A stretch of DNA of 64,000 bases from Halobacteriovorax marinus (GCA_002163155.1 MAAO01000006.1:1-64000); one strand, 5' to 3'. Shown: positions 1,820 through 36,496, counted from the first letter of the stretch. The notes: generated by a model from the letters alone, not told the origin. Translations and numbers: made by a program.

Positions 1820-2881
1820 ATGAAAGTAATGATTGTAGACGACAGTATTGTATATAGGTCCGCTATTTCTCAGGCATTGGAACATATGCCTGAGGTGGAG
1901 GTCGTGAAAACTGCTTCTAATGGAAAAATTGCAATTGAATTTCTAAAACAGGAAACTGGAATAGAGTTAATTACTCTAGATATGGAAATGCCTGTACTTG
2001 ATGGAATTGAAACAATTAAGGCCATTAGGAAATTTAATACAGATGTCTCAATCATTGTCTTCTCATCGTTTACCACGAGAGGTGCAGAAAAAACTATAGA
2101 TGCACTTCATTCTGGAGCGGATGATTTTGTCGCGAAAATTGAAGGGGATGGTAATATTGAAGGATCTATCAAGATGATAGAGGACGAGTTACTACCTAGA
2201 ATTAAAGCTTTAACAGAAAGAAAGTATAGCCGTTCTCACATTGAAGATCAGATCAATAAACCCTATGAGAATGACTTCGTAGATGTTGATAAGTTAGTTG
2301 ATGAGATGATGGTAAAACCTAAACTCATTTGTATTGGTTGTTCTACTGGCGGCCCAGAAGCACTGGCAACTATCTTTAGGGAAATTACTGAGGTAGTTAC
2401 TGTTCCCATGTTGTTGGTTCAACATATGCCTCCCATGTTTACTGAAAAACTTGCAGAAATGTTAAGTAAACTTTCTCCAGTGAAAATTAAAGAAGCAAAG
2501 TTTGGAGATAAGCTCGAACCTGGCATTTGTTACATCGCCCCAGGAGATTACCATATGGAACTTTCTGCGAAAGGTGAAATTACTTTAAATCAAAATGAGA
2601 AAGTGTGTTTTGTTCGACCGTCTGTGGATGTTCTTTTTAGATCAATTGCACGAAACTTCAAAGAACAAGTTATGGCCATTACATTGACAGGAATGGGCGA
2701 TGATGGAGCTAATGGCTCGGCAGAACTAAAAAAGAATGGTTGTTATCATTTTATCCAAGATGAAAGTAGTTCGATTGTTTGGGGAATGCCTGGAGCCGTG
2801 CAGAAATCTGGCATTGAACCAGTAATAGTTAATTTAGATAAGTTTGGAAAATTATTAAATCTAGTATCAAAGAGAGTGTAG
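1820..2881 (+). CDS. cheB: CheB protein-glutamate methylesterase/deamidase with receiver domain
   Basis: CheB removes methyl groups from chemoreceptor glutamates when its receiver is phosphorylated by CheA. The receiver domain (about 1-115) has the acidic pocket VDDS, the phospho-acceptor Asp54 in TLDMEMP and a conserved Lys near 106. The C-terminal methylesterase domain (about 165-350) has the catalytic Ser175 in GCSTGGPE, His202 in QHMPP and Asp295 in GMGDDG. Length (353 aa) is normal for the family. It sits directly after the receptor and 2 bases before an Hpt gene. No cheR is present in the window, so the matching methyltransferase must be elsewhere or the enzyme acts mainly as a deamidase. 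Confidence 0.95.
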   Translation: MKVMIVDDSIVYRSAISQALEHMPEVEVVKTASNGKIAIEFLKQETGIELITLDMEMPVLDGIETIKAIRKFNTDVSIIVFSSFTTRGAEKTIDALHSGADDFVAKIEGDGNIEGSIKMIEDELLPRIKALTERKYSRSHIEDQINKPYENDFVDVDKLVDEMMVKPKLICIGCSTGGPEALATIFREITEVVTVPMLLVQHMPPMFTEKLAEMLSKLSPVKIKEAKFGDKLEPGICYIAPGDYHMELSAKGEITLNQNEKVCFVRPSVDVLFRSIARNFKEQVMAITLTGMGDDGANGSAELKKNGCYHFIQDESSSIVWGMPGAVQKSGIEPVIVNLDKFGKLLNLVSKRV

Positions 2882-2883
2882 AA

Positions 2884-3897
2884 ATGTATTTTGGTTCATA
2901 TTTAGTTAGAAAAGAAATAATTAAGATAGAGGATTTCATTACTTGTGCTACTGAGCAAATTAAATCAAACAAAACCCTGCTAGAAATAGTTTTTGAAAAT
3001 TCAATTTTAAATGAAGATCAGATTCTATCCCTGGTAGATAAACAATATGATTCTAAAAAAACGTTTGTTCAAATTATAAGAGAAAGTGACTTGATAGAGG
3101 ATTCAAAATTACTAACTTACTATGAATCATCTTCTTCAAATCAGAAATCATTTTCAGATATATTAAAAGAAAAATCAATTCTTGGGCAAGATGATCTCTT
3201 AAAGTATTATGAAGATTATGAGAAAAGCAATGTTAGTGACCCTAAAGCAAGTATTGGTGGAGATACAGTTGAGATTTCATCAGCAGCTCTTGAATCTTTA
3301 AAAGAACTTGAAGGTATAAATCTTGGAGAATTGGCAACTCTAGAGAAGAGTGTAGAAGTTCCTGCAGAAATTTCTACAGAAGCATCTTCAGATGAGCCTC
3401 AAATATCAGCTGCTGCCCTAGAGTCGTTAAAAGAGCTTGATGCAGGTGCGGCAGAAGGTTTAGCTCAGGATGGCGAACAAAGTAGTGCTTTTGTGGATGA
3501 TTTTTTGGATATCTTTAGTGATCATCTCTACACCAAATTGAATAAAATCATTGGCATCATTTTTAAAACGGCAGATGAGGAAGGGGACTTTTCTAACTTC
3601 TTCAACTCTCTGTTTAGAGAATTGCATATAATAAAAGGTGCCGCTAGACTTGCTCATTTTGCAAAAATTGAAGGGGCCATCGGTCAGTGGGAAGCCGGCA
3701 TTGAATTCTTCTTTAATTTGTCTGAAAAACAAAAAAAGAGTTGGCTCAAAGAACATGGGAGTTCTCTTAGTCAATTAGTTGAATTATGTTGGGATATTAG
3801 AAATAAAATTGCTACAAATAATTCAGAAACTAGCCTTGAGGATGCCAAACTAAATGAGATCTCAGGAATATGTGAGAATTTAAAGAAAGTTAGTTAA
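2884..3897 (+). CDS. Hpt-domain protein with GspE-N-like N-terminal repeats
   Basis: The C-terminal third (about 200-300) is a histidine phosphotransfer domain with the phospho-accepting His248 in LHIIKGAA. The first 110 residues form about three degenerate helical repeats of the type LL-I--E---L-EDQIL, reminiscent of the MshEN/GspE N-terminal fold that can bind c-di-GMP; that resemblance is weak. The linker carries a duplicated motif (ISSAALESLKEL near 131 and ISAAALESLKEL near 174). It begins 2 bases after cheB, so it is probably cotranscribed and takes part in the same phosphorelay. Its stop overlaps by 8 bases the stop of the convergent ABC1-kinase gene. Confidence 0.75.
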   Translation: MYFGSYLVRKEIIKIEDFITCATEQIKSNKTLLEIVFENSILNEDQILSLVDKQYDSKKTFVQIIRESDLIEDSKLLTYYESSSSNQKSFSDILKEKSILGQDDLLKYYEDYEKSNVSDPKASIGGDTVEISSAALESLKELEGINLGELATLEKSVEVPAEISTEASSDEPQISAAALESLKELDAGAAEGLAQDGEQSSAFVDDFLDIFSDHLYTKLNKIIGIIFKTADEEGDFSNFFNSLFRELHIIKGAARLAHFAKIEGAIGQWEAGIEFFFNLSEKQKKSWLKEHGSSLSQLVELCWDIRNKIATNNSETSLEDAKLNEISGICENLKKVS

Positions 3898-5392
3898 GCG
3901 TTATGATGAACTGCTCATTTCCATTTTTCAAGTTTAGAAGTGTTCCAGACATGAGTTGGTTTTGAAAAGCTTTTCTAATAACATCTTTAATATCTCCACC
4001 TGACTTCTCAATCTTTTTTAATGTATCTGGACTTAGAAAGCTATCTAACTCGAATAGTACAGTTGATGGGAGGGTTAAGTTAACTTTCTCATCACCATTT
4101 CTAATTATTCGAATATTTAAATTATCTGCCTTAGACTGAAAGTACTTTGCCAAGTCTCGTTTACCAACTTGTAGAGATAGTGCATCTGCTTGATTATTCT
4201 TTGACACAATATTTTTCAGATTACCACGGAAAAATATTTGAATATTTAAACTTTTTAAGGTTTTCAAGACGAGAGAGAAGGAACGCATGAGTGAAAAGAA
4301 TTCAGGAGAACCTGAAAGCCTAAACCACCATTTCTTATCACCAAGTATATTATCGACAATAGAGCCTATATTATAATTTTTTAGATCATATTTGATATTA
4401 CTCACGTATGGGGCAAGTATGGCATACATAAGTGGAGCCAAAAATTCTTCGATATGTTCAAGTTTCTTCTTATCAAAACCTACTTTTGAGAGGAGTTCTA
4501 GGAAGTTGTCATCTATATTGTTTTGTACAGAGTGTATAATTCTCAAAATTGCAGTTCTTTGTTCTTTTGTAACATGCATGCAGTTACCAAGGTCTACCAT
4601 GTAAACTCTTTGAGATGTCTTTGAGTAAATATAGTTGTCTTCTTGATTATCTACTTGAATAAAACCTTCATTAAACAAACTATCATGAAAGAAAGAGAGG
4701 ATACTTGTTGCAATTTTCTCACTAGAGGCCTTATCAAATTCAATATTCTTTCCAAGGTTAATTCCGTCTACCCAATTGGAAATAAGCACTGAGTTTGAAG
4801 TCGGCTCTTGGTATCCAGCCGGAGTAAGGAAGTTATTATTTTCTGCAATCTCTTTTATTTTTAAAGAATTACTATATTCTCTTTTGTAATTTAGTTCATT
4901 TGTAATGTTGTGATAGAGGTTCGCAAGAAAATAATCCTTATCGAAGTTTGATTTTGAAATAGGTATAGGGGTTACCTTAAGAAGATTTTTTAGCGTTTTA
5001 AATTGATTATCGATATTTTTATCAATATTTGGATATTTAATTTTAAGAGCTAGAAGTTGACCCTTTGAATCCTTTACCTGAGTGACAAGACCAATTGATC
5101 CCATAATATAGCAATCATTTATGGTTTCAAGATTGTTTTCCTCGAGAACCTTTGCAATTATACTCTTAAAGTTGATGTCAATATCATCGCTCTTAATAAT
5201 GACTTTCTCACTATAGTTCACATCACTTTTATATTGATTGAGAAATTGTCCAAGCTTTAAATATAGACCCTTTTCCTGCATGAACAGATCGTAGAGTTCA
5301 TTTAGTGAAGAGTTAGCTTTAGAAGAATCTTTAGAGGTTGCACCCTTGGCGGACTTTAAGCATTTTGCGAGATTTACATAGTTCTTTATCAT
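3890..5392 (-). CDS. ABC1/AarF/UbiB-family atypical protein kinase-like protein
   Basis: The family motif K46-L-G-Q49 is present, with the nucleotide-site Lys117 (LALKIK), Glu166 (NELNYKREY) and a C-lobe VDLGN corresponding to the DFG metal site (Asp267). The catalytic loop, normally HADPHPGN, reads QVDNQEDN: Asp248 and Asn253 are kept and both His are lost. Members of this family (UbiB, ADCK/COQ8) support quinone biosynthesis or lipid homeostasis, usually at membranes; the substrate here cannot be assigned. Total length of 500 aa is normal. The start overlaps the upstream 150-aa gene by 62 bp; the ATG at 5392 is supported because the residues before KLGQ look like a normal family N-terminus. 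Confidence 0.8.
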   Translation of the reverse strand: MIKNYVNLAKCLKSAKGATSKDSSKANSSLNELYDLFMQEKGLYLKLGQFLNQYKSDVNYSEKVIIKSDDIDINFKSIIAKVLEENNLETINDCYIMGSIGLVTQVKDSKGQLLALKIKYPNIDKNIDNQFKTLKNLLKVTPIPISKSNFDKDYFLANLYHNITNELNYKREYSNSLKIKEIAENNNFLTPAGYQEPTSNSVLISNWVDGINLGKNIEFDKASSEKIATSILSFFHDSLFNEGFIQVDNQEDNYIYSKTSQRVYMVDLGNCMHVTKEQRTAILRIIHSVQNNIDDNFLELLSKVGFDKKKLEHIEEFLAPLMYAILAPYVSNIKYDLKNYNIGSIVDNILGDKKWWFRLSGSPEFFSLMRSFSLVLKTLKSLNIQIFFRGNLKNIVSKNNQADALSLQVGKRDLAKYFQSKADNLNIRIIRNGDEKVNLTLPSTVLFELDSFLSPDTLKKIEKSGGDIKDVIRKAFQNQLMSGTLLNLKNGNEQFIITLN

Positions 5393-29509: not shown

Positions 29510-29593
29510 GCCCAGGTGGTGAAATTGGTAGACACGCTAGACTTAGGATCTAGTGCTTATGGCGTGGAGGTTCAAGTCCTCTCCTGGGCACCA
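29510..29593 (+). tRNA. tRNA-Leu, anticodon UAG
   Basis: The 84-base sequence folds as a class II tRNA: acceptor GCCCAGG pairs with CCTGGGC, followed by A and an encoded CCA. The anticodon stem CTAGA/TCTAG encloses the loop CTTAGGA, giving anticodon TAG (leucine). A long variable arm (GTGCTTATGGCGT region) and TTCAAGT T-loop are typical for tRNA-Leu. Its 3' end is the integration site of the adjacent element, which restores a complete tRNA sequence. Confidence 0.97.
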
Positions 29594-29642
29594 ATACTTA
29601 CACTAAAAAAAGACAAGACTCGAAAGAGTCTTTTTTTTTGCC
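29573..29642 (+). repeat. attL: left copy of 70-bp att direct repeat
   Basis: These 70 bases, from the T arm of the tRNA-Leu through the CCA and the following terminator, recur exactly at 36427-36496. The first base upstream differs between copies (T versus G) and identity ends after GCC on the right, which defines the duplicated core. The distance between copies is 6854 bp. Confidence 0.95.
29616..29639 (+). terminator. Rho-independent terminator of tRNA-Leu (within attL)
   Basis: AGACTC, GAAA tetraloop, GAGTCT and nine T residues. An identical copy lies at 36470-36493 in attR, so tRNA transcription ends before entering the element and would also end properly after excision. Confidence 0.92.
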
Positions 29643-29666
29643 TTTTTTCTCTTTAATATCCCATAC

Positions 29667-30818
29667 TTATGCAGATCCTGACTTTTTTAGAAAGAGATGA
29701 ACTTTAGCTCCTTGAAAGTCTGGGTTCAAATAGGGTTCATTCTGCTCAAAATTGGCATCAACACCCATAGACATATACTTTGATGCAGCCTGTAAATGCT
29801 CTGGAGAGAAATGAGCATATCTCATTGTCATCTCAACTTTTGAATGGCCTAGTATTTTCTGAAGTTCAAAGATATTTCCACCATTCATCATGAACTGAGT
29901 AGCGAAGGTATGTCTTAAGTCGTGAAAGCAAATCTTATTCTCTATTTGAGCCTTCTTACAGTCCGACATGAACTTTCGATACACATGACCATAATCTATG
30001 ACAGAGCTGTCAGGGAGAGTAAAAACAAACTCTGATAGTCCCATTTGCCTTAAGCTGAGCAGGAGTTTTCTAAGTTGTCCCACCATGGGAAGAATTCTTC
30101 TCATGTTGGTCTTAGTTGAATCCATGAGGCCAATTTTATTACGGCTTCTGGTTATGGTGATTAAGTTTAAATCAAAATTAACTCTATCCCACTTTAGGCC
30201 ACATAGCTCACCGAGTCTCATTCCCGTATGTAGGGCAGTGAAGTAAATCGGGTAGTGTGTACTTGATCGGTTAGAGTTTAGAAATTGATCAATCTCGCTT
30301 TTAGTCCAATAGCTGTCAGTCTTCAAATCCTCTTTTTGAGGTCTTATTCCTTTTAGAGGATTCTTTAGAAGATAGTTGTTATTTACCGCATGGTTAAGAA
30401 TTGCCTTTAATAACATGATGATGACATTGATACCTTTACCATTGTGACCTTTAGACTTTAGTGACGCTATAAACATAAGAATTTGCTCTTTCTTTATCTT
30501 GCCCAGTTCTTTTTCACCAAAAGTAGGATTTAGATGGGTCTTTAATTGACCTTGGTAAGTAGAGTACGTTCTTTCTGCTAATTGAACTTTGACGTATGTG
30601 TTTATGTAAATGGAAGCATAGTCTTTGAATTTTAAAGATTGGTTTAAAAGACTTTCTTCATCACCAAAGGCTAAGGCCTTAGATTTTTCAGATTCTTTTC
30701 GACGTTTCCATTCTTTAGCATCTGTCTTTCTTGTAAAGGATGGACTTTTAAGAACCCTTCCATTTATTCGTATCATTTCTCGGTAGCGATTACCGTTTTT
30801 AGTTTTTCTTGTTTCCAT
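29667..30818 (-). CDS. int: Tyrosine recombinase (phage-type integrase)
   Basis: The C-terminal catalytic domain has all active-site residues: Arg201 (HTGMRLGE), His299 and Arg302 (HDLRHTF), His325 (LGHS) and Tyr334 (MRYAH). The N-terminus (about 1-50) looks like an arm-type DNA-binding domain and 60-150 like the SAM-like core-binding domain. At 383 aa it is complete and probably active. The start follows a strong AAGGAGG. It should catalyse integration into the tRNA-Leu 3' end and excision. The part of the gene coding for the C-terminus contains one copy of an 18-bp repeat also found near attR, a candidate arm site. Confidence 0.95.
   Translation of the reverse strand: METRKTKNGNRYREMIRINGRVLKSPSFTRKTDAKEWKRRKESEKSKALAFGDEESLLNQSLKFKDYASIYINTYVKVQLAERTYSTYQGQLKTHLNPTFGEKELGKIKKEQILMFIASLKSKGHNGKGINVIIMLLKAILNHAVNNNYLLKNPLKGIRPQKEDLKTDSYWTKSEIDQFLNSNRSSTHYPIYFTALHTGMRLGELCGLKWDRVNFDLNLITITRSRNKIGLMDSTKTNMRRILPMVGQLRKLLLSLRQMGLSEFVFTLPDSSVIDYGHVYRKFMSDCKKAQIENKICFHDLRHTFATQFMMNGGNIFELQKILGHSKVEMTMRYAHFSPEHLQAASKYMSMGVDANFEQNEPYLNPDFQGAKVHLFLKKSGSA
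29722..29739 (+). repeat. Candidate integrase arm-type site, left
   Basis: GGGTTCAAATAGGGTTCA, containing two direct copies of GGGTTCA, lies 80 bp inside attL. The same 18 bases occur at 36272-36289 near attR in the same orientation. Paired short direct repeats flanking the core are typical arm-type sites of lambda-like integrases. Confidence 0.6.
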
Positions 30819-30966
30819 AGCTCCTCCTTGGGAGTTAGAGCTAGGCTATCCTTATCATCTATTTTCTTTTCTATTCGAATGTTAAAGACCAATAATGAGG
30901 ACAGCCTAGCTTGGAAAAAAATATGACGTCAAATGTTTTTAATGTCATTGACGTCATTGGTGTCAC
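30819..30966. promoter_or_regulatory. Control region upstream of the integrase with inverted repeats and TGACGTCA palindromes
   Basis: Between the ATPase stop and the integrase start lie an imperfect 13-bp inverted repeat (30839-30851 AGCTAGGCTATCC; 30899-30911 GGACAGCCTAGCT, one mismatch) and two identical palindromes TGACGTCA at 30924-30931 and 30949-30956. They are candidate operators for control of int. No convincing promoter was identified. Confidence 0.5.
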
Positions 30967-32577
30967 TTACAGGTCAAATTCTTTTTCATCATTGGAATTG
31001 TTAATATTCCTTGAATCCTGTAAATCAAAAAAATCACCGTTTCTGTTTCGAGATTTATATCCAGACTCTTTATCGAAACTCTCAATATAGGTGAACGGCT
31101 TTGTAAAAGTAATCGACTTAAGCCTTTCTCCTGAACTTCTTTTTAATTCTTCAATGAAGATTCCCTCCTCTCTGAGTTGTGGTATCAATCTCTTAAGTTC
31201 TCTAGAAAAACTTTGGATTGATGGAAACCTTTTTTTGAATTCTTTCTCGAAGTTCTCAGGGACAATCTCTTTGTATAGGTTAGAGGTTGTCATTTTGGTT
31301 GAAGGAAACTTTCCTTCCTTGAAGTCATCATTTTGTATTGAAAGATCAGGTTCAAGAACTTCTGTGTAAAGCCACTTTAGTCCTTGGAAGATTAAACAGG
31401 AGTCTAAGGACTCTTGCCTCGCTTCATTCTTTATAGAGCTAAAATCCTCTAAGAACGTTGAGTCTGTATAATCTAGAGTTTGGTAAATTGCTTCACTCCA
31501 CTTTGCAAAATCAGCCATTCTGGGTAGGTCTTCTAGCTTAATTGTATCCACTTTTTGATATGCTTCTGAAATCAATGTGAAAATAGCCGAAAGAATGTCA
31601 GGGAAGTCTTCATTGAATGAAGTCCAAAATTCTTTCTCAGCTCTTCTCTCTGAGTTTGGAATTGATTTAAGATTAAATACAATACTTCTGTCTTGTATAT
31701 CTCCTCTCTTGGCTATGTTATCAATACCATTGAGAATGAGAGGTTTTCTAAGCTTTAAGCACGTTACTCTATCGTCAGAATATAAAGTTCTTTTACTGTA
31801 AGCGACACCAGTAGAGACTTTACAGAGGGTATCAGACATTTTTCCATTGATACCCGATAGATTATCGAACGCAGTTAAATGCGAATTCTTAAGAACAATG
31901 TAAATATCATCTTCTTTGGAAGGGAAAGATTCTATTAGTGATTGAGTGTTATCAATGATCGTTTTAATCACTTTACTTGTGGTTGATTTGGCAGATCCTT
32001 TTTCTCCGTTTAGAATCAGAATTGGATAAGGTGCTCCTAGGTCGATCATTGAATAAGTTATAAAGCTTAGGAGTATTCTGTATTCTATATCATTCAAAGT
32101 TAAATATTTTTTGAGCAGATCAAATGACCTCCCCCCCAAAGAGAAAGGGGGGAGTGATACTATATTACTAGGTCGCATGAAAATTTTTTCACAATTTTTT
32201 ACCTGTAGAACGTTGACGATTTTATCAAATATTAGAAAATCTGTACCAGTATCATAAATTAGTTTATTACCATCTACACCAGTTCTTATAGAAACTGTTT
32301 CTGACTTGTTTTTTGTTTTAACCTTTATTGAAATGATATCAACTAAGTCTTCCAGTTTTAATCTAGTGATATTCTTTTGGAATTTTTGCAGATGCATGAG
32401 CTTATACTGTTCTTTGAACTCATTTCCATTAAGAGTAACAGTGGCACCACTTCCTGCATTAATGGGAGTTGCATAAACTGACTTATTGCTATCTACGCAG
32501 AATGAAAAGTTTTCCTCGGCGATTTTAATTTGGCCTTGAATATTATTACTTACAGGCTCTGTTTGATTATTGCTCAT
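30967..32577 (-). CDS. Rep/primase-associated D5-like AAA+ ATPase
   Basis: A 536-aa protein with a Walker A motif NGEKGSAKSTT (about 190-200) and a Walker B-like LTAFDNLSG near 240, followed by a sensor-like KPLILNGID near 285. This central part resembles the superfamily 3-like ATPases found in phage, ICE and satellite replication proteins. No primase catalytic motif is apparent in the N-terminal 150 residues. It likely opens and unwinds the element's origin; the C-terminal 150 residues may bind DNA. The start overlaps the upstream AlpA/Xis-like gene by 11 bp. Confidence 0.75.
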   Translation of the reverse strand: MSNNQTEPVSNNIQGQIKIAEENFSFCVDSNKSVYATPINAGSGATVTLNGNEFKEQYKLMHLQKFQKNITRLKLEDLVDIISIKVKTKNKSETVSIRTGVDGNKLIYDTGTDFLIFDKIVNVLQVKNCEKIFMRPSNIVSLPPFSLGGRSFDLLKKYLTLNDIEYRILLSFITYSMIDLGAPYPILILNGEKGSAKSTTSKVIKTIIDNTQSLIESFPSKEDDIYIVLKNSHLTAFDNLSGINGKMSDTLCKVSTGVAYSKRTLYSDDRVTCLKLRKPLILNGIDNIAKRGDIQDRSIVFNLKSIPNSERRAEKEFWTSFNEDFPDILSAIFTLISEAYQKVDTIKLEDLPRMADFAKWSEAIYQTLDYTDSTFLEDFSSIKNEARQESLDSCLIFQGLKWLYTEVLEPDLSIQNDDFKEGKFPSTKMTTSNLYKEIVPENFEKEFKKRFPSIQSFSRELKRLIPQLREEGIFIEELKRSSGERLKSITFTKPFTYIESFDKESGYKSRNRNGDFFDLQDSRNINNSNDEKEFDL

Positions 32578-32749
32578 TTAAAACCTCTTTCGTGTTTTTG
32601 TTAATCCATTGTTCTAATTCTGATGCTTTAAATCGAACCAGTCGGCCTACTTTGAAAAATGGAATTTCTCGATTGAAAATTAATTTTCGTAAATGTGAGG
32701 GCTTAAGAGTCAAGAATTGAACTGTTTGATTAAAGTCTAATATTTTCAT
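32567..32749 (-). CDS. AlpA/excisionase-family helix-turn-helix protein
   Basis: A 60-aa winged-helix/MerR-like DNA-binding protein: TVQFLTLKPSHLRKLIFNRE with the downstream FFKVGRLVRFKASELEQWI wing is the classic AlpA/Xis (HTH_17) pattern. The ATG at 32749 follows AAGGAA; an in-frame TTG seven codons upstream is unlikely. Such proteins drive excision by bending attachment-site DNA or activate int. It is coupled to the ATPase gene by an 11-bp overlap. Confidence 0.85.
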   Translation of the reverse strand: MKILDFNQTVQFLTLKPSHLRKLIFNREIPFFKVGRLVRFKASELEQWINKNTKEVLNEQ

Positions 32750-32857
32750 TAGTATTCCTTTTATTAACAAAACCGCTTCAGTGCGATATGTGATTAAGGA
32801 ATGTTCTTAAAATTAGAAGAGATGGTAAAAGTACTTCGTTGGGATTGTTTTTGGCGG

Positions 32858-33685
32858 TTAAGTACTTTTCTTTAATTTCTGAAGAAAATTTGATGTTTTA
32901 TCCTCGTCCCATATAGGATTAACATCTCCAATTAGTATGTTTGCAAAGCTTGTAATTATTGAACATTGTAACTTCTTAGTCATAGGGATAGTTTGGAACT
33001 CCCTAAAAAGTAACTGAGAAATTAGTCTCAAGGGCATATTTTCAATACCTGCTGTTTGAAACAATAATCTTTTTTTGCTATTTAATTGGTTTAGTCTTTT
33101 TTCAAGAAGATCAAGGGTAGAGCTATACTCCAAAAATGAAAATATCTTTTGATCATAGAAATTACTGGAAAGTGATTCCTTTAGTTCTTTAATTTTGTTT
33201 AAGTCAGTTGAAATTCTCTTCTTTTCTTCTTTATTATAATAGTGTGGAACTAGGGAATGATTCCTCTTTAAATGACTATATTGAAATATTATTAAAGAAT
33301 GAATAAACACTTCTGTTAGCCTCTTATAAAAATTAAGAAAAGCAGTGTCACCCTTGTCACTAAATGAAGGGGTTTTAAATGAAAACAATTCCAACTCATA
33401 ACCTAAATCCCCGTATTGTTCATAGGTTTTATAGTCAAAGTGAGTTAATACCCTTTCTTTTTTTAGGTAATAATCGACATTCTCTATATTGATTTGTGGT
33501 GATCGAGAAAAATGATTGGCATCTATTTCGGAAATTAAAGAAAATAGGTTATCAGTTTCTAGATTAGTCTTTTCACAAAGTGCTTTGATTTCTTTATAAC
33601 AATTCTGAAGGTGTTCAGATAAGTGTTTCTCTAATGAAAGCACATTCGCTATGAAATTTTGAATTGACTCTTTTTTATTTATCAC
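32858..33685 (-). CDS. Unknown 275-aa element protein
   Basis: I do not recognise this protein. It is hydrophilic, strongly helical, with Lys/Glu/Leu-rich segments and no signal peptide or membrane helix. GTG start at 33685 preceded by AGGAAGG. It lies upstream of the AlpA/Xis-like gene, separated by 108 bp, and divergent from the HTH gene. Position suggests a regulatory, replication or phage-interference role, but nothing in the sequence shows it. Confidence 0.55.
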   Translation of the reverse strand: MINKKESIQNFIANVLSLEKHLSEHLQNCYKEIKALCEKTNLETDNLFSLISEIDANHFSRSPQINIENVDYYLKKERVLTHFDYKTYEQYGDLGYELELFSFKTPSFSDKGDTAFLNFYKRLTEVFIHSLIIFQYSHLKRNHSLVPHYYNKEEKKRISTDLNKIKELKESLSSNFYDQKIFSFLEYSSTLDLLEKRLNQLNSKKRLLFQTAGIENMPLRLISQLLFREFQTIPMTKKLQCSIITSFANILIGDVNPIWDEDKTSNFLQKLKKST

Positions 33686-33754
33686 GGGCCTTCCTCATTG
33701 AGGTATAATTTAGTAGAATAAATCATTAACAATAGATGGTAGTCAAAATAAATA

Positions 33755-34108
33755 ATGAACAATCTAGGTCGACCGAAAATTGAATCCAGTATTCTCAAAA
33801 AGATCGCTTGTAAGCTGGCTAAAGTAGGTTATCAGAATGATGATATCGCCTATTTCATAGGGGTTGGAGTGTCTACTTTATATCGTTGGCTAAAATACGA
33901 TAGAGTTTTTTGGCAGTCCATACAAGACTCTAAAGTTGAATATGATAGTGATTTAGAAGGAAGAGTTTTGACTAATCTTATTAGAGGTGGATATGTTAGC
34001 GATATTTACGAAAATGGTGAATATAGTCATTCACTAAAAGGGCCTAGTAAGGCAGTGAATATTTCAGAACTAAATAAGTACCTTTCTAATAGGAAGACAA
34101 AGAAGTAA
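33755..34108 (+). CDS. HTH protein resembling phage small terminase subunits
   Basis: A 117-aa protein starting NNLGRPKIESSILKKIACKLA and containing a helix-turn-helix (YQNDDIAYFIGVGVSTLYRWLK), followed by a VFWQSIQDSK helix. This layout is common in phage small terminase subunits and in resolvase-like or transposase HTH domains. If it is a terminase homologue it could redirect packaging to the element's DNA, as in PICIs. No clear Shine-Dalgarno precedes the ATG. It diverges from the 275-aa gene across 69 bp. Confidence 0.5.
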   Translation: MNNLGRPKIESSILKKIACKLAKVGYQNDDIAYFIGVGVSTLYRWLKYDRVFWQSIQDSKVEYDSDLEGRVLTNLIRGGYVSDIYENGEYSHSLKGPSKAVNISELNKYLSNRKTKK

Positions 34109-34170
34109 TTTTTTCTAGTATAATAATGAATCATGACAATCTTTTTTCCTAACTTTAGGAAGGAACCTCT

Positions 34171-35064
34171 ATGAAGTTATATAAATATTTTAAATTCAAC
34201 TCGAATAACTTAATGTCTTTATCAAACGATACTTTCTACTTTTCTCATCCTTTAAATTTTAATGATCCCTTTGATTTTAAGATAAATCTATCTTCGTCTA
34301 ATAATGAAGAAATTTTAAACAAACTCTGTACCTTTTTAGAAACAGGGTCTGGAGAAGACTTCTTCTTATTTCCTGATGAAATAGTGAAGGATATTTTAAA
34401 TAAACAATATGACTACCCTTTGGACGTTCCCTTTCTTTCTGACACTTTAGAGTTTCTATTGGGATACGAACTATCAGAATATAAAAGAGTATTAAATGAT
34501 ATGGATATTAAGAAATATCCCTTGTTAAAGGTTTTCTTAGAGTTTTATGTAAACTTAGGTGTGACTTGTCTTTGTCTAGACCCCAGTTCTCCAGCCATGT
34601 GGGCTCATTATACACATAATCATGAAGGTTTTTGTGCAGAGTATGAGATTGATAAAGAGTTAGATGATGAATTCATTTTTGTAAAAGATGATATTGAGAA
34701 ACAATCCTCAATTGAACTTGATAGGAAAATGATTTTAAGTAAGGTGAAATATAAACCCGTAAGAAATAATTTATTGAATGATAAAAGTAATAAATCAGAC
34801 CTTATTAAAGAAATGTTCATAAAGTCCGCCGAATGGAAGTATGAAGATGAATATAGATTACTGCACCTTGAAAAAAACTCTAAATCTTATAAACACCCTT
34901 TTAAGTTAAAAAGAGTTTGTTCCGGGCTAAGAATGAATGAAAATGATTTTAGTATCTTGAAAAAGGTTTTAGATAAAAGAGAAGGGGTGAAGTTATGCAC
35001 TTCAAGGAGGTCTAGTTTCCAAATTCATTGGAATAATGATGATCCTAGAATTTTTCTAGCTTAA
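34171..35064 (+). CDS. DUF2971-family protein
   Basis: The N-terminus LYKYFKFN--NL-SLSNDTFYFSHPLNFNDPFD, the central MWAHYTHNHEGFC (about 143-155) and the later WKYEDEYRLL are the hallmarks of DUF2971. The biochemical activity of the family is unproven; members are often found in mobile elements and near defence genes. AGGAAGGAA precedes the ATG. It is probably a cargo gene; a role in phage defence is a hypothesis. Confidence 0.75.
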   Translation: MKLYKYFKFNSNNLMSLSNDTFYFSHPLNFNDPFDFKINLSSSNNEEILNKLCTFLETGSGEDFFLFPDEIVKDILNKQYDYPLDVPFLSDTLEFLLGYELSEYKRVLNDMDIKKYPLLKVFLEFYVNLGVTCLCLDPSSPAMWAHYTHNHEGFCAEYEIDKELDDEFIFVKDDIEKQSSIELDRKMILSKVKYKPVRNNLLNDKSNKSDLIKEMFIKSAEWKYEDEYRLLHLEKNSKSYKHPFKLKRVCSGLRMNENDFSILKKVLDKREGVKLCTSRRSSFQIHWNNDDPRIFLA

Positions 35065-35097
35065 TGACATAAATGACATAAATTGTTCTATCTTCAA

Positions 35098-36156
35098 TTA
35101 TTCTATATATGAAAACCTTGGACCAGTTTGATTCTTGTACTTAAGTTTGCTTTCCCTTACTGACTCCAAGTAAATATCAATTCCTAGTCCGATAGTAAGA
35201 TCATTCTTAAATGGGCTAGAGAAGTACCTTCTGTAATTTGTTTTTAAATATACAGATGACTTTGTCGACATAATATAATTAAAGCTAATAGAAGCATTTA
35301 ATAGAATATTCCATTCTGAAGAAATATCCTCCTCATCTGCCCCTCCCCATGGGTCAGCAGCGTAGTAGGTATAAGCAAAAGCTGGGCCTAATTTTAATTC
35401 GCTATAGAAATTGGAAATAACAAATACAGTATTTCCCATGAAAGAAGCTCCTAAACTTCCTGCTTTTATTTCTTCACTGTTATTTTGGTAAGATGGATTA
35501 GAATTATCGGGGGCAATTTCTCCAACAGTTAATGTTCTTTGCGATGCAAAAGCACTGATACTCCAGCCTATGCCATTTGCTTTACTTACAGTGAATCCGG
35601 CTTCGATATCCCACTCCGCATTACCAGCAAATCTCATCTCAGTAAATATTGAAAGTCTTAGTAAGGAATACTTTGGGAAAACCATTTCATTCTTTAATTG
35701 TTTTTCTAATTCTTCTAATTCCTTTTTCTTGGCAAGTAGATTTTGACGTATATTTAACTCATCTTTTTTATTTTCAATTTCTAAATCTAAGTCACTAATT
35801 TGCTTTTGATATGTTTCTAAATCATCCTTTTTGATGGTAGTTACTCTATACTCCATACCTCTTAGGCAATAATAACTCCCATCTTCATTCTTTTCACACG
35901 TGTTCCTTAATGGGGTTAAGATTACTTGAAAATCTTTACAGTCAGCTGATTTGTTACAAATTAGATCAAATTCCTTATTTGTTGCATGAATTGCATTCAA
36001 CTTTGCAGTGGAAATATCTTGTTCTTGCGCCGAGCCACATACTCTAATTATATTTCCCTGTTTTTCAGAAGCCATTTCTTCACACATCCATCCTTCGGCA
36101 TAGCTTGAGGTTGTAATAGAAATAGAAACTAGAAATACAAATAGCTGAGTCTTCAC
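35098..36156 (-). CDS. Outer-membrane-type beta-barrel protein with periplasmic coiled coil
   Basis: A Sec signal peptide (1-20, TSSYA) precedes a Cys-containing globular region (about 25-110; several Cys), a coiled coil (about 115-158: KQISDLDLEIENKKDEL and KKELEELEKQLKNE) and about 190 residues of amphipathic strands typical of an outer-membrane barrel. No family is recognised. It is encoded inside the integrated element next to attR, so it is cargo. A surface role such as receptor masking is only speculation. Confidence 0.65.
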   Translation of the reverse strand: MKTQLFVFLVSISITTSSYAEGWMCEEMASEKQGNIIRVCGSAQEQDISTAKLNAIHATNKEFDLICNKSADCKDFQVILTPLRNTCEKNEDGSYYCLRGMEYRVTTIKKDDLETYQKQISDLDLEIENKKDELNIRQNLLAKKKELEELEKQLKNEMVFPKYSLLRLSIFTEMRFAGNAEWDIEAGFTVSKANGIGWSISAFASQRTLTVGEIAPDNSNPSYQNNSEEIKAGSLGASFMGNTVFVISNFYSELKLGPAFAYTYYAADPWGGADEEDISSEWNILLNASISFNYIMSTKSSVYLKTNYRRYFSSPFKNDLTIGLGIDIYLESVRESKLKYKNQTGPRFSYIE

Positions 36157-36426
36157 TTAATTCTCCATAAACAAATTATGTGTGCAATTATACATAGTTT
36201 AGCTATTTTATCTTATTTAATAATGTTCACCAATATTTCAAAGAACAAGTTTTCTTGACGTTGGAAATTTAGGGTTCAAATAGGGTTCAAATTGTATAAT
36301 TTCTAATGAAAGTAGATGATAATAAATAACTTAGCTGCGACTGGTTGTTAGGTAGTATTTAGTGCTAGTTTGGTTATCTTTTGTGATGGATTATCATTTA
36401 TTATTATGTATTAAAATTGCCCCGAG
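36157..36426. other. Non-coding right end of the integrated element
   Basis: This 270-bp AT-rich stretch lies between the barrel gene and attR. It contains the candidate integrase arm site at 36272-36290. Otherwise I see no gene. Together with attR and the 130-bp chromosomal leader of the pilin-like gene it makes a 470-bp gene-free stretch. Confidence 0.6.
36272..36290 (+). repeat. Candidate integrase arm-type site, right
   Basis: GGGTTCAAATAGGGTTCAA, identical over 18 bases to the copy at 29722-29739, lies 136 bp inside attR. Same orientation as the left copy; contains two direct GGGTTCAAA units. Confidence 0.6.
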
Positions 36427-36496
36427 CAAGTCCTCTCCTGGGCACCAATACTTACACTAAAAAAAGACAAGACTCGAAAGAGTCTTTTTTTTTGCC
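36427..36496 (+). repeat. attR: right copy of the 70-bp att direct repeat
   Basis: Exact copy of 29573-29642, carrying the last 21 bases of the tRNA-Leu and its terminator hairpin with nine T residues (36470-36493). It marks the junction back to the chromosome. Confidence 0.95.

Follow-up and report, generated by a model that had tools for sequence, protein, structure and literature searches.

A small integrative element at a tRNA-Leu gene of Halobacteriovorax marinus, a candidate phage satellite

The window analysed here is a stretch of 64,000 nucleotides from Halobacteriovorax marinus (GCA_002163155.1, MAAO01000006.1:1-64000). Next to a tRNA-Leu gene it contains an integrated element of 6,854 bp, which encodes a tyrosine integrase (Int), an AlpA-like protein, a replication protein (Rep), a protein resembling small terminase subunits (TerS; here hth117) and few other proteins. 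Our best reading, which we consider probable, is that of a small integrative phage satellite. We read it so because related small elements, bounded by attachment (att) repeats, carry an integrase, a helix-turn-helix (HTH) protein of the HTH_17 family and a TerS, yet no large terminase subunit (TerL). An earlier inspection made without database searches, here called the sequence-only reading, had already pointed to a satellite, similar to P4 or to the phage-inducible chromosomal islands (PICI). The satellite reading has gained strength from the relatives; by the features tested, the element belongs neither to the PICI nor to the P4-like satellites.

The element and its integration site

Two identical direct repeats of 70 bp, attL at 29573-29642 and attR at 36427-36496 (both plus strand), are spaced by 6,854 bp from start to start, where the sequence-only reading had placed the ends of a 6.85-kb element. 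When extended over 29573-29648, the repeat matches in 75 of 76 positions. A chance origin is ruled out for an exact repeat of 70 bp. The tRNA-Leu gene (29510..29593, plus strand; ARAGORN, Rfam RF00005) is intact at the left end. By repeat comparison and terminator scan, attL consists of 21 bp of the tRNA 3' end, a spacer and a terminator hairpin with a T-run, and the scan found the hairpin duplicated at the right end. Since the left repeat holds the last 21 bp of tRNA-Leu and the terminator, the element supplies a replacement tRNA end and terminator.

In three of four genomes of the same genus (L026, L028, L029) the site is empty: the tRNA-Leu gene is directly followed by a pilin-like gene and trpS. 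The fourth (L027, G001) has an unrelated pair of genes there, for a sigma factor and a vWA-domain protein (1939-4977), without att repeats. The unoccupied site in sister genomes speaks for mobility of the element. Its GC content is 33%, that of the window 36%. The host looked Bdellovibrio-like to the sequence-only reading, and TrpS agrees: its closest named records are Bacteriovoracaceae SI034_bin84 (70%) and Halobacteriovorax SP4097 (68%).

Scans of the element's proteins with Pfam, PHROG and NCBIfam revealed no structural, TerL, relaxase, type IV secretion system (T4SS) or lytic gene; that structural and conjugation genes are missing had been stated before. As the element has no vehicle genes and tiny relatives carry TerS, it is most likely carried in the particles of a helper phage. 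Small size and absent vehicle genes would also fit a larger prophage or integrative and conjugative element (ICE) cut down by deletion. Such a remnant, however, is hard to reconcile with exact att copies at both ends, with genes that are all intact open reading frames (ORFs), and with a layout that recurs in the independent elements L022, L176 and L213; we consider it very improbable.

Relatives of the element

Related elements, which the sequence-only reading had suggested looking for, were indeed found in the same family and phylum. At least four of them are att-bounded, measure 5.1-8.3 kb and combine an integrase with HTH_17 and TerS in the absence of TerL; three have strong Terminase_2 matches. 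These three are L182 (21-bp att, 8.3 kb, TerS 1.6e-33), L183 (19-bp att, 6.85 kb, 8.7e-29) and L184 (45-bp att, 5.84 kb, 1.4e-23), each with an integrase and an HTH_17-like gene and none with TerL. They were found by searching with the TerS of L176 (G040), a locus with an integrase matching that of the window at 43%, a CHC2-Toprim-DUF3987 primase/helicase, HTH_17, a divergent Terminase_2 gene (8e-23) and no TerL in the stretch read. L213 sits at a tRNA-Arg gene, has a 16-bp att and 5.14 kb, and encodes an integrase and a 119-aa phrog_309 protein, again without TerL.

All five of these loci (L176, L182, L183, L184, L213) resemble the window element in being tRNA-integrated, in their size of 5-8 kb and in their exported or defence cargo. 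They differ from it in having another TerS (Terminase_2 or clearer phrog_309), a different Rep or none, and different tRNA genes. The phrog_309 search also revealed TerS-like genes for 111-140 aa in integrase-bearing elements without TerL (L213, L210, L211, L215, L216, L221), and most of the short TerS-like proteins from this search retain, in their C-terminal part, a motif similar to FWLK.R..W.D. No att repeats turned up for L176, L210, L211, L215, L216, L221 and L230; these seven loci are therefore not counted as bounded.

The same tRNA-Leu type as in the window is occupied by the related elements L022, L156 and L230. L022 (G027) is 5.97 kb long with att repeats, and its Rep and Int are 29% and 37% identical to those of the window element. 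Common to both is the gene order orf-HTH_17-Rep, then int; instead of DUF2971 and omp352 genes, L022 carries an XRE gene and two lipoprotein-like genes. L229, with a Rep of the same family, shows orf-HTH_17-Rep up to the contig end.

The TerS-like protein

The gene for hth117 (33755..34108, plus strand, 117 aa) is divergent from the leftward operon, at a distance of 69 bp. The protein matches the TerS family phrog_309 with an E value of 1.4e-6 and six other TerS families more weakly. Its weak phage matches of broad coverage in tblastn are for the most part TerS, and the majority of the inspected records have the gene directly upstream of TerL; plasmid matches are mostly short HTH segments of resolvases. 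One phage match sits in the Streptococcus satellite Javan259 (MK448388). Like the element, Javan259 has an integrase, and its TerS, of phrog_309, shows a weak similarity to hth117; it measures 12.7 kb, however, also encodes TerL and lives in a Gram-positive host.

With a TerS profile that was partly recruited by hth117 itself, then built without it, hth117 came out on top of 1,585 ORFs (window plus 20 element loci) at 39.1 bits. A phage TerS profile, the recruitment of which was biased, gave 55.8 bits versus 7.7 for the best full-length shuffle. By Pfam and PHROG, its HTH is of the TerS/homeodomain type, not of the XRE/CI type. The TerS C-terminal motif FWLKNR..W.D finds only a loose match in KYLSNRKTKK. 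Used alone as the query in a deep search of contigs from viruses and genomes, hth117 retrieved no relatives, and its fold prediction without alignment yielded an unusable model, with a predicted local distance difference test (pLDDT) score of 44. That an HTH protein resembles small terminases, as the sequence-only reading had put it, holds for the DNA-binding half only, as far as sequence comparison goes; the C-terminal half stays near shuffle level. On balance, hth117 stands a somewhat better than even chance of being a working TerS.

Counter-evidence and competing explanations

A number of observations weigh against a satellite. Under an independently recruited profile of Bdellovibrionota TerS-like proteins, hth117 scored 18.8 bits versus 10.4 for the best of 5,000 shuffles and ranked third of the 1,585 ORFs, with only the HTH aligned; its C-terminal part alone reached an E value of 0.075. 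Most weak phrog_309 matches in relatives likewise align the HTH segment alone, and to our eyes they resemble the HTHs of insertion sequence elements. L022, the closest relative with the same site and the same Rep, has no TerS. The pair of integrase and HTH_17 is also found in ICE-like elements of the family, such as L158 with its VirB4-like ATPase, and plasmids, too, carry Rep homologues. The host genome contains no TerL of phrog_2, the identity of which as a TerL family was confirmed, or of phrog_38, other TerL families not having been searched. Finally, excision, packaging and helper dependence of the element are predictions.

As to the phrog_309 matches, those below about 28 bits were rejected as TerS: most are confined to the HTH (positions ~128-181) and resemble those of transposons.

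Some of these facts would suit an integrative and mobilisable element (IME), which would excise by means of Int and the AlpA-like protein, replicate by a plasmid-like Rep and be moved by the relaxase and T4SS of a conjugative element acting on an unrecognised transfer origin (oriT); hth117 would then be a transcriptional regulator. ICE-like elements have integrases of the same clade, not only L158 but also L168/L169, where a type II/IV secretion-type ATPase accompanies an integrase of this clade, and Rep homologues reside on small plasmids of bacteria and an archaeon. Library scans, however, found in the element neither the relaxase or mobilisation gene by which IMEs and ICEs are recognised nor a coupling protein; a bare oriT would escape such scans. 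Moreover, the TerS of the related small elements would be of no use to an IME. We regard this explanation as unlikely.

Alternatively, the element might be a passive defence or cargo island that excises and integrates but depends for its spread solely on generalised transduction, vesicles or uptake of DNA, with hth117 as the repressor of the divergent operon. It carries a candidate defence gene (DUF2971/PDC-S31), and hth117 is placed where a repressor is expected. There is also a precedent for a simpler element in the same genus: L161 (G003:C1, 9285-13693), 4.36 kb with 47-bp att at a different tRNA-Leu gene, has int, HTH_17 and few small genes, but neither Rep nor TerS. A passive island would, however, have no need of a dedicated D5-type Rep, and the HTH of hth117 is not of the XRE/CI type; this explanation is decidedly improbable. 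The small phage satellite remains our preferred reading.

Integration and replication functions

The intact integrase (29667..30818, minus strand, 383 aa) had been recognised from sequence alone, and PF00589 (8e-28) and PHROG_1 (2e-74) bear this out; the residues R, HxxR, H and Y are recognisable in the sequence. Its clade occurs in 41 of 143 related genomes, very often beside tRNA-Leu and with an adjacent HTH_17 gene. As a satellite marker the clade was rejected, since ICE-like elements are driven by it as well.

A motif scan revealed putative arm-type sites of the integrase: GGGTTCA twice, 11 bp apart, on the left (29722..29739, plus strand) and GGGTTCAAAT twice, 11 bp apart, on the right (36272..36293, plus strand). 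All four GGGTTCA copies of the 64-kb window are inside the element. They form two pairs, both spaced by 11 bp; one lies about 80-90 bp inwards of attL, the other 134-155 bp inwards of attR. In L156, which has a 50% identical integrase and the same tRNA type, GGTTCA pairs spaced by 11 and 12 bp lie beside the tRNA. The paired motifs are probably the arm sites.

The AlpA/Xis-like gene of the sequence-only reading (32567..32749, minus strand) is confirmed as an HTH_17 gene by PF12728 (8e-9) and TIGR01764 'excise' (4.5e-9); with the AlpA family itself (PF05930) its product scores below the cut-off. The ATG start was taken, while a TTG at 32770 opens the longest ORF.

Rep (30967..32577, minus strand, 536 aa) is a putative helicase of superfamily 3/D5 type with AAA+ motifs: Walker A GEKGSAKST, Walker B LTAFDNL, sensor LILNGI and QDRS. 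These are invariant in an alignment of eight relatives; sequence patterns from alignment A1 were abandoned as too divergent. Rep matches no family in Pfam, PHROG or NCBIfam. Its AlphaFold model (pLDDT 71) finds as best solved folds, in Foldseek, AsfvPrimPol, NrS-1, poxvirus D5/E5 and SaPI5 Pri-Rep (7ola), with E values of 5e-8 to 1e-6. The label 'D5-like' given earlier is therewith justified, by predicted fold only. A primase domain is not recognisable, and Rep is therefore taken as a helicase only.

Relatives of Rep occur in seven of the 143 related genomes and, by a separate search, in six of 129 family genomes; others are encoded by small plasmids that are not mobilisable, from Methanothrix (pH6Ac) and Methylobacterium, and by a single Microbacterium phage. 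The deep search of viral and genomic contigs gave no relatives when Rep alone was the query. The archaeal plasmid pH6Ac is 12 kb long, and its Rep helicase domain is part of a large protein (L032, 1608-4982); by this occurrence the replicase family crosses domains of life.

The non-coding gap between int and rep (30839..30956, without strand) contains a 20-nt inverted repeat (30839-30858/30892-30911) and two TGACGTCA palindromes at 30924 and 30949. Judged by these features, it is possibly a regulatory or origin site.

Comparison with known satellites

P4-like satellites are characterised by genes for capsid size or decoration (sid, psu) and the P4 core set. Pfam, PHROG and NCBIfam scans found no such family in the element.

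PICI are recognised by an integrase, a replication module and a master regulator in a conserved layout, a lack of structural and lytic phage genes, att sites that prophages never use, and induction and packaging that depend on a helper (PMC6092414). With PICI, including the Staphylococcus aureus pathogenicity islands (SaPI), the element shares int, a regulator of the AlpA/HTH_17 kind, a helicase of the SaPI5 Pri-Rep fold, a TerS-like gene and the lack of structural and lytic genes. It differs in layout and in size, being 6.9 kb long instead of about 12-15 kb (PMC6092414); no Stl, Ppi or capsid-redirecting gene was detected, and there is no known helper.

The element also resembles the phage-inducible chromosomal minimalist islands (PICMI) of Vibrionaceae (PMC10803314). 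For PICMI115, of 6,110 bp, experiments have established the minimal logic that we propose here: int, alpA and prim are required, and its DNA enters normal capsids as a concatemer (PMC10803314). The size of the element, which had been called smaller than that of typical satellites, is therefore not anomalous. PICMI share with it a length of about 6 kb, an integrase, AlpA/HTH_17, a replication gene, few cargo genes including defence, and the absence of capsid or capsid-remodelling genes. The model used to search for PICMI asks for int and AlpA (PF05930/PF12728), with fis optional in a wider search (PMC10803314); the element has PF00589 and PF12728. In contrast to PICMI, it is integrated at tRNA-Leu instead of fis, belongs to another phylum, has a different gene order and a TerS-like gene, and its Rep lacks a DUF3987/DUF5906 match in Pfam, while the relative L176 has DUF3987. 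Membership in PICI, PICMI or the P4-like satellites is not claimed, because the defining features tested fail. The element is PICMI/PICI-like in logic and a member of neither.

Helper and proposed mechanism

The helper prophage for which a search had been suggested did not show up: without a phrog_2 or phrog_38 TerL in the host genome, a resident helper is not indicated. By analogy to PICMI, an infecting phage is the likelier helper.

We imagine the following cycle. An entering helper phage would switch on the leftward operon orf275-alpA-rep-int. Int and the AlpA-like factor would recombine the 70-bp att cores via the paired GGGTTCA arm sites to a circle of 6,854 bp, which the Rep helicase would copy. 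The TerS-like hth117, or a cis site of the pac/cos kind, would direct the DNA to the TerL and capsid of the helper, and in the next cell the element would re-integrate at tRNA-Leu. DUF2971 and the exported protein would be cargo, probably shielding the host from competing phages.

Cargo

The DUF2971 protein (34171..35064, plus strand, 297 aa) is a candidate anti-phage cargo, as it matches PF11185 (8e-7), phrog_1762 (2e-36) and PDC-S31 (7e-36), a candidate defence family of PADLOC. The product of omp352 (35098..36156, minus strand, 352 aa) has a signal-like N terminus, a coiled coil and a strand-rich C terminus; it matched no family in library scans and is probably an exported or outer-membrane cargo. 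The first gene of the leftward operon, orf275 (32858..33685, minus strand, 275 aa), has no relative among the 143 genomes and no family in library scans. Common ancestry with the genes at the equivalent place in other elements found no support by comparison.

Relatives carry other defence genes. L182 has an NsnB/AriA-like ATPase, and in L229 (G166:C332, 995-4335) genes of a cyclic-oligonucleotide-based anti-phage signalling system (CBASS), a cyclase (2e-113), an E1-E2 (2e-129) and a JAB protein (8e-44), lie upstream of orf-HTH_17-Rep; a Csx27-like protein accompanies this set.

Implications and further observations

Satellites as a kind are already known. We found no report on phage satellites in Bdellovibrionota or Bdellovibrio-like bacteria, subscription journals being mostly outside our search. 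To our knowledge, three things are new: the host group, the lineage of the Rep and a format of 5-8 kb with TerS only. Tentatively, with a chance not quite even, Bdellovibrio-like predators may harbour a phylum-wide set of tRNA-integrated TerS-only satellites of 4-8 kb, in which the replication module (D5-type Rep, DUF3987 primase, others) can be swapped and the cargo, for defence or export, exchanged; the window element, with a Rep lineage absent from family libraries, would belong to it. Should the elements indeed be satellites, then there is a hidden helper-phage ecology in predatory bacteria, compact elements with CBASS and other defence genes circulate among them, and minimalist satellites reach well beyond Vibrionaceae. 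TerS without TerL is a simple signature that can be searched for.

A small XRE-type HTH gene recurs in L019, L020, L022, L024, L183, L212, L213, L214 and L221, which have varied integrases and Rep types, and is in most cases followed by one or two exported or lipoprotein-like genes. The combination is possibly a shared cassette, perhaps for surface exclusion of phages. The unrelated L183 is, with 6,851 bp from start to start, nearly equal in size to the window element; this may be a coincidence or reflect a limit set by packaging. L212 (8351-10238) and L023 (2877-4767) have a TerS and TerL pair beside an integrase, and in the 20 kb inspected we saw no capsid genes; they are possibly a second type of satellite with a terminase of its own.

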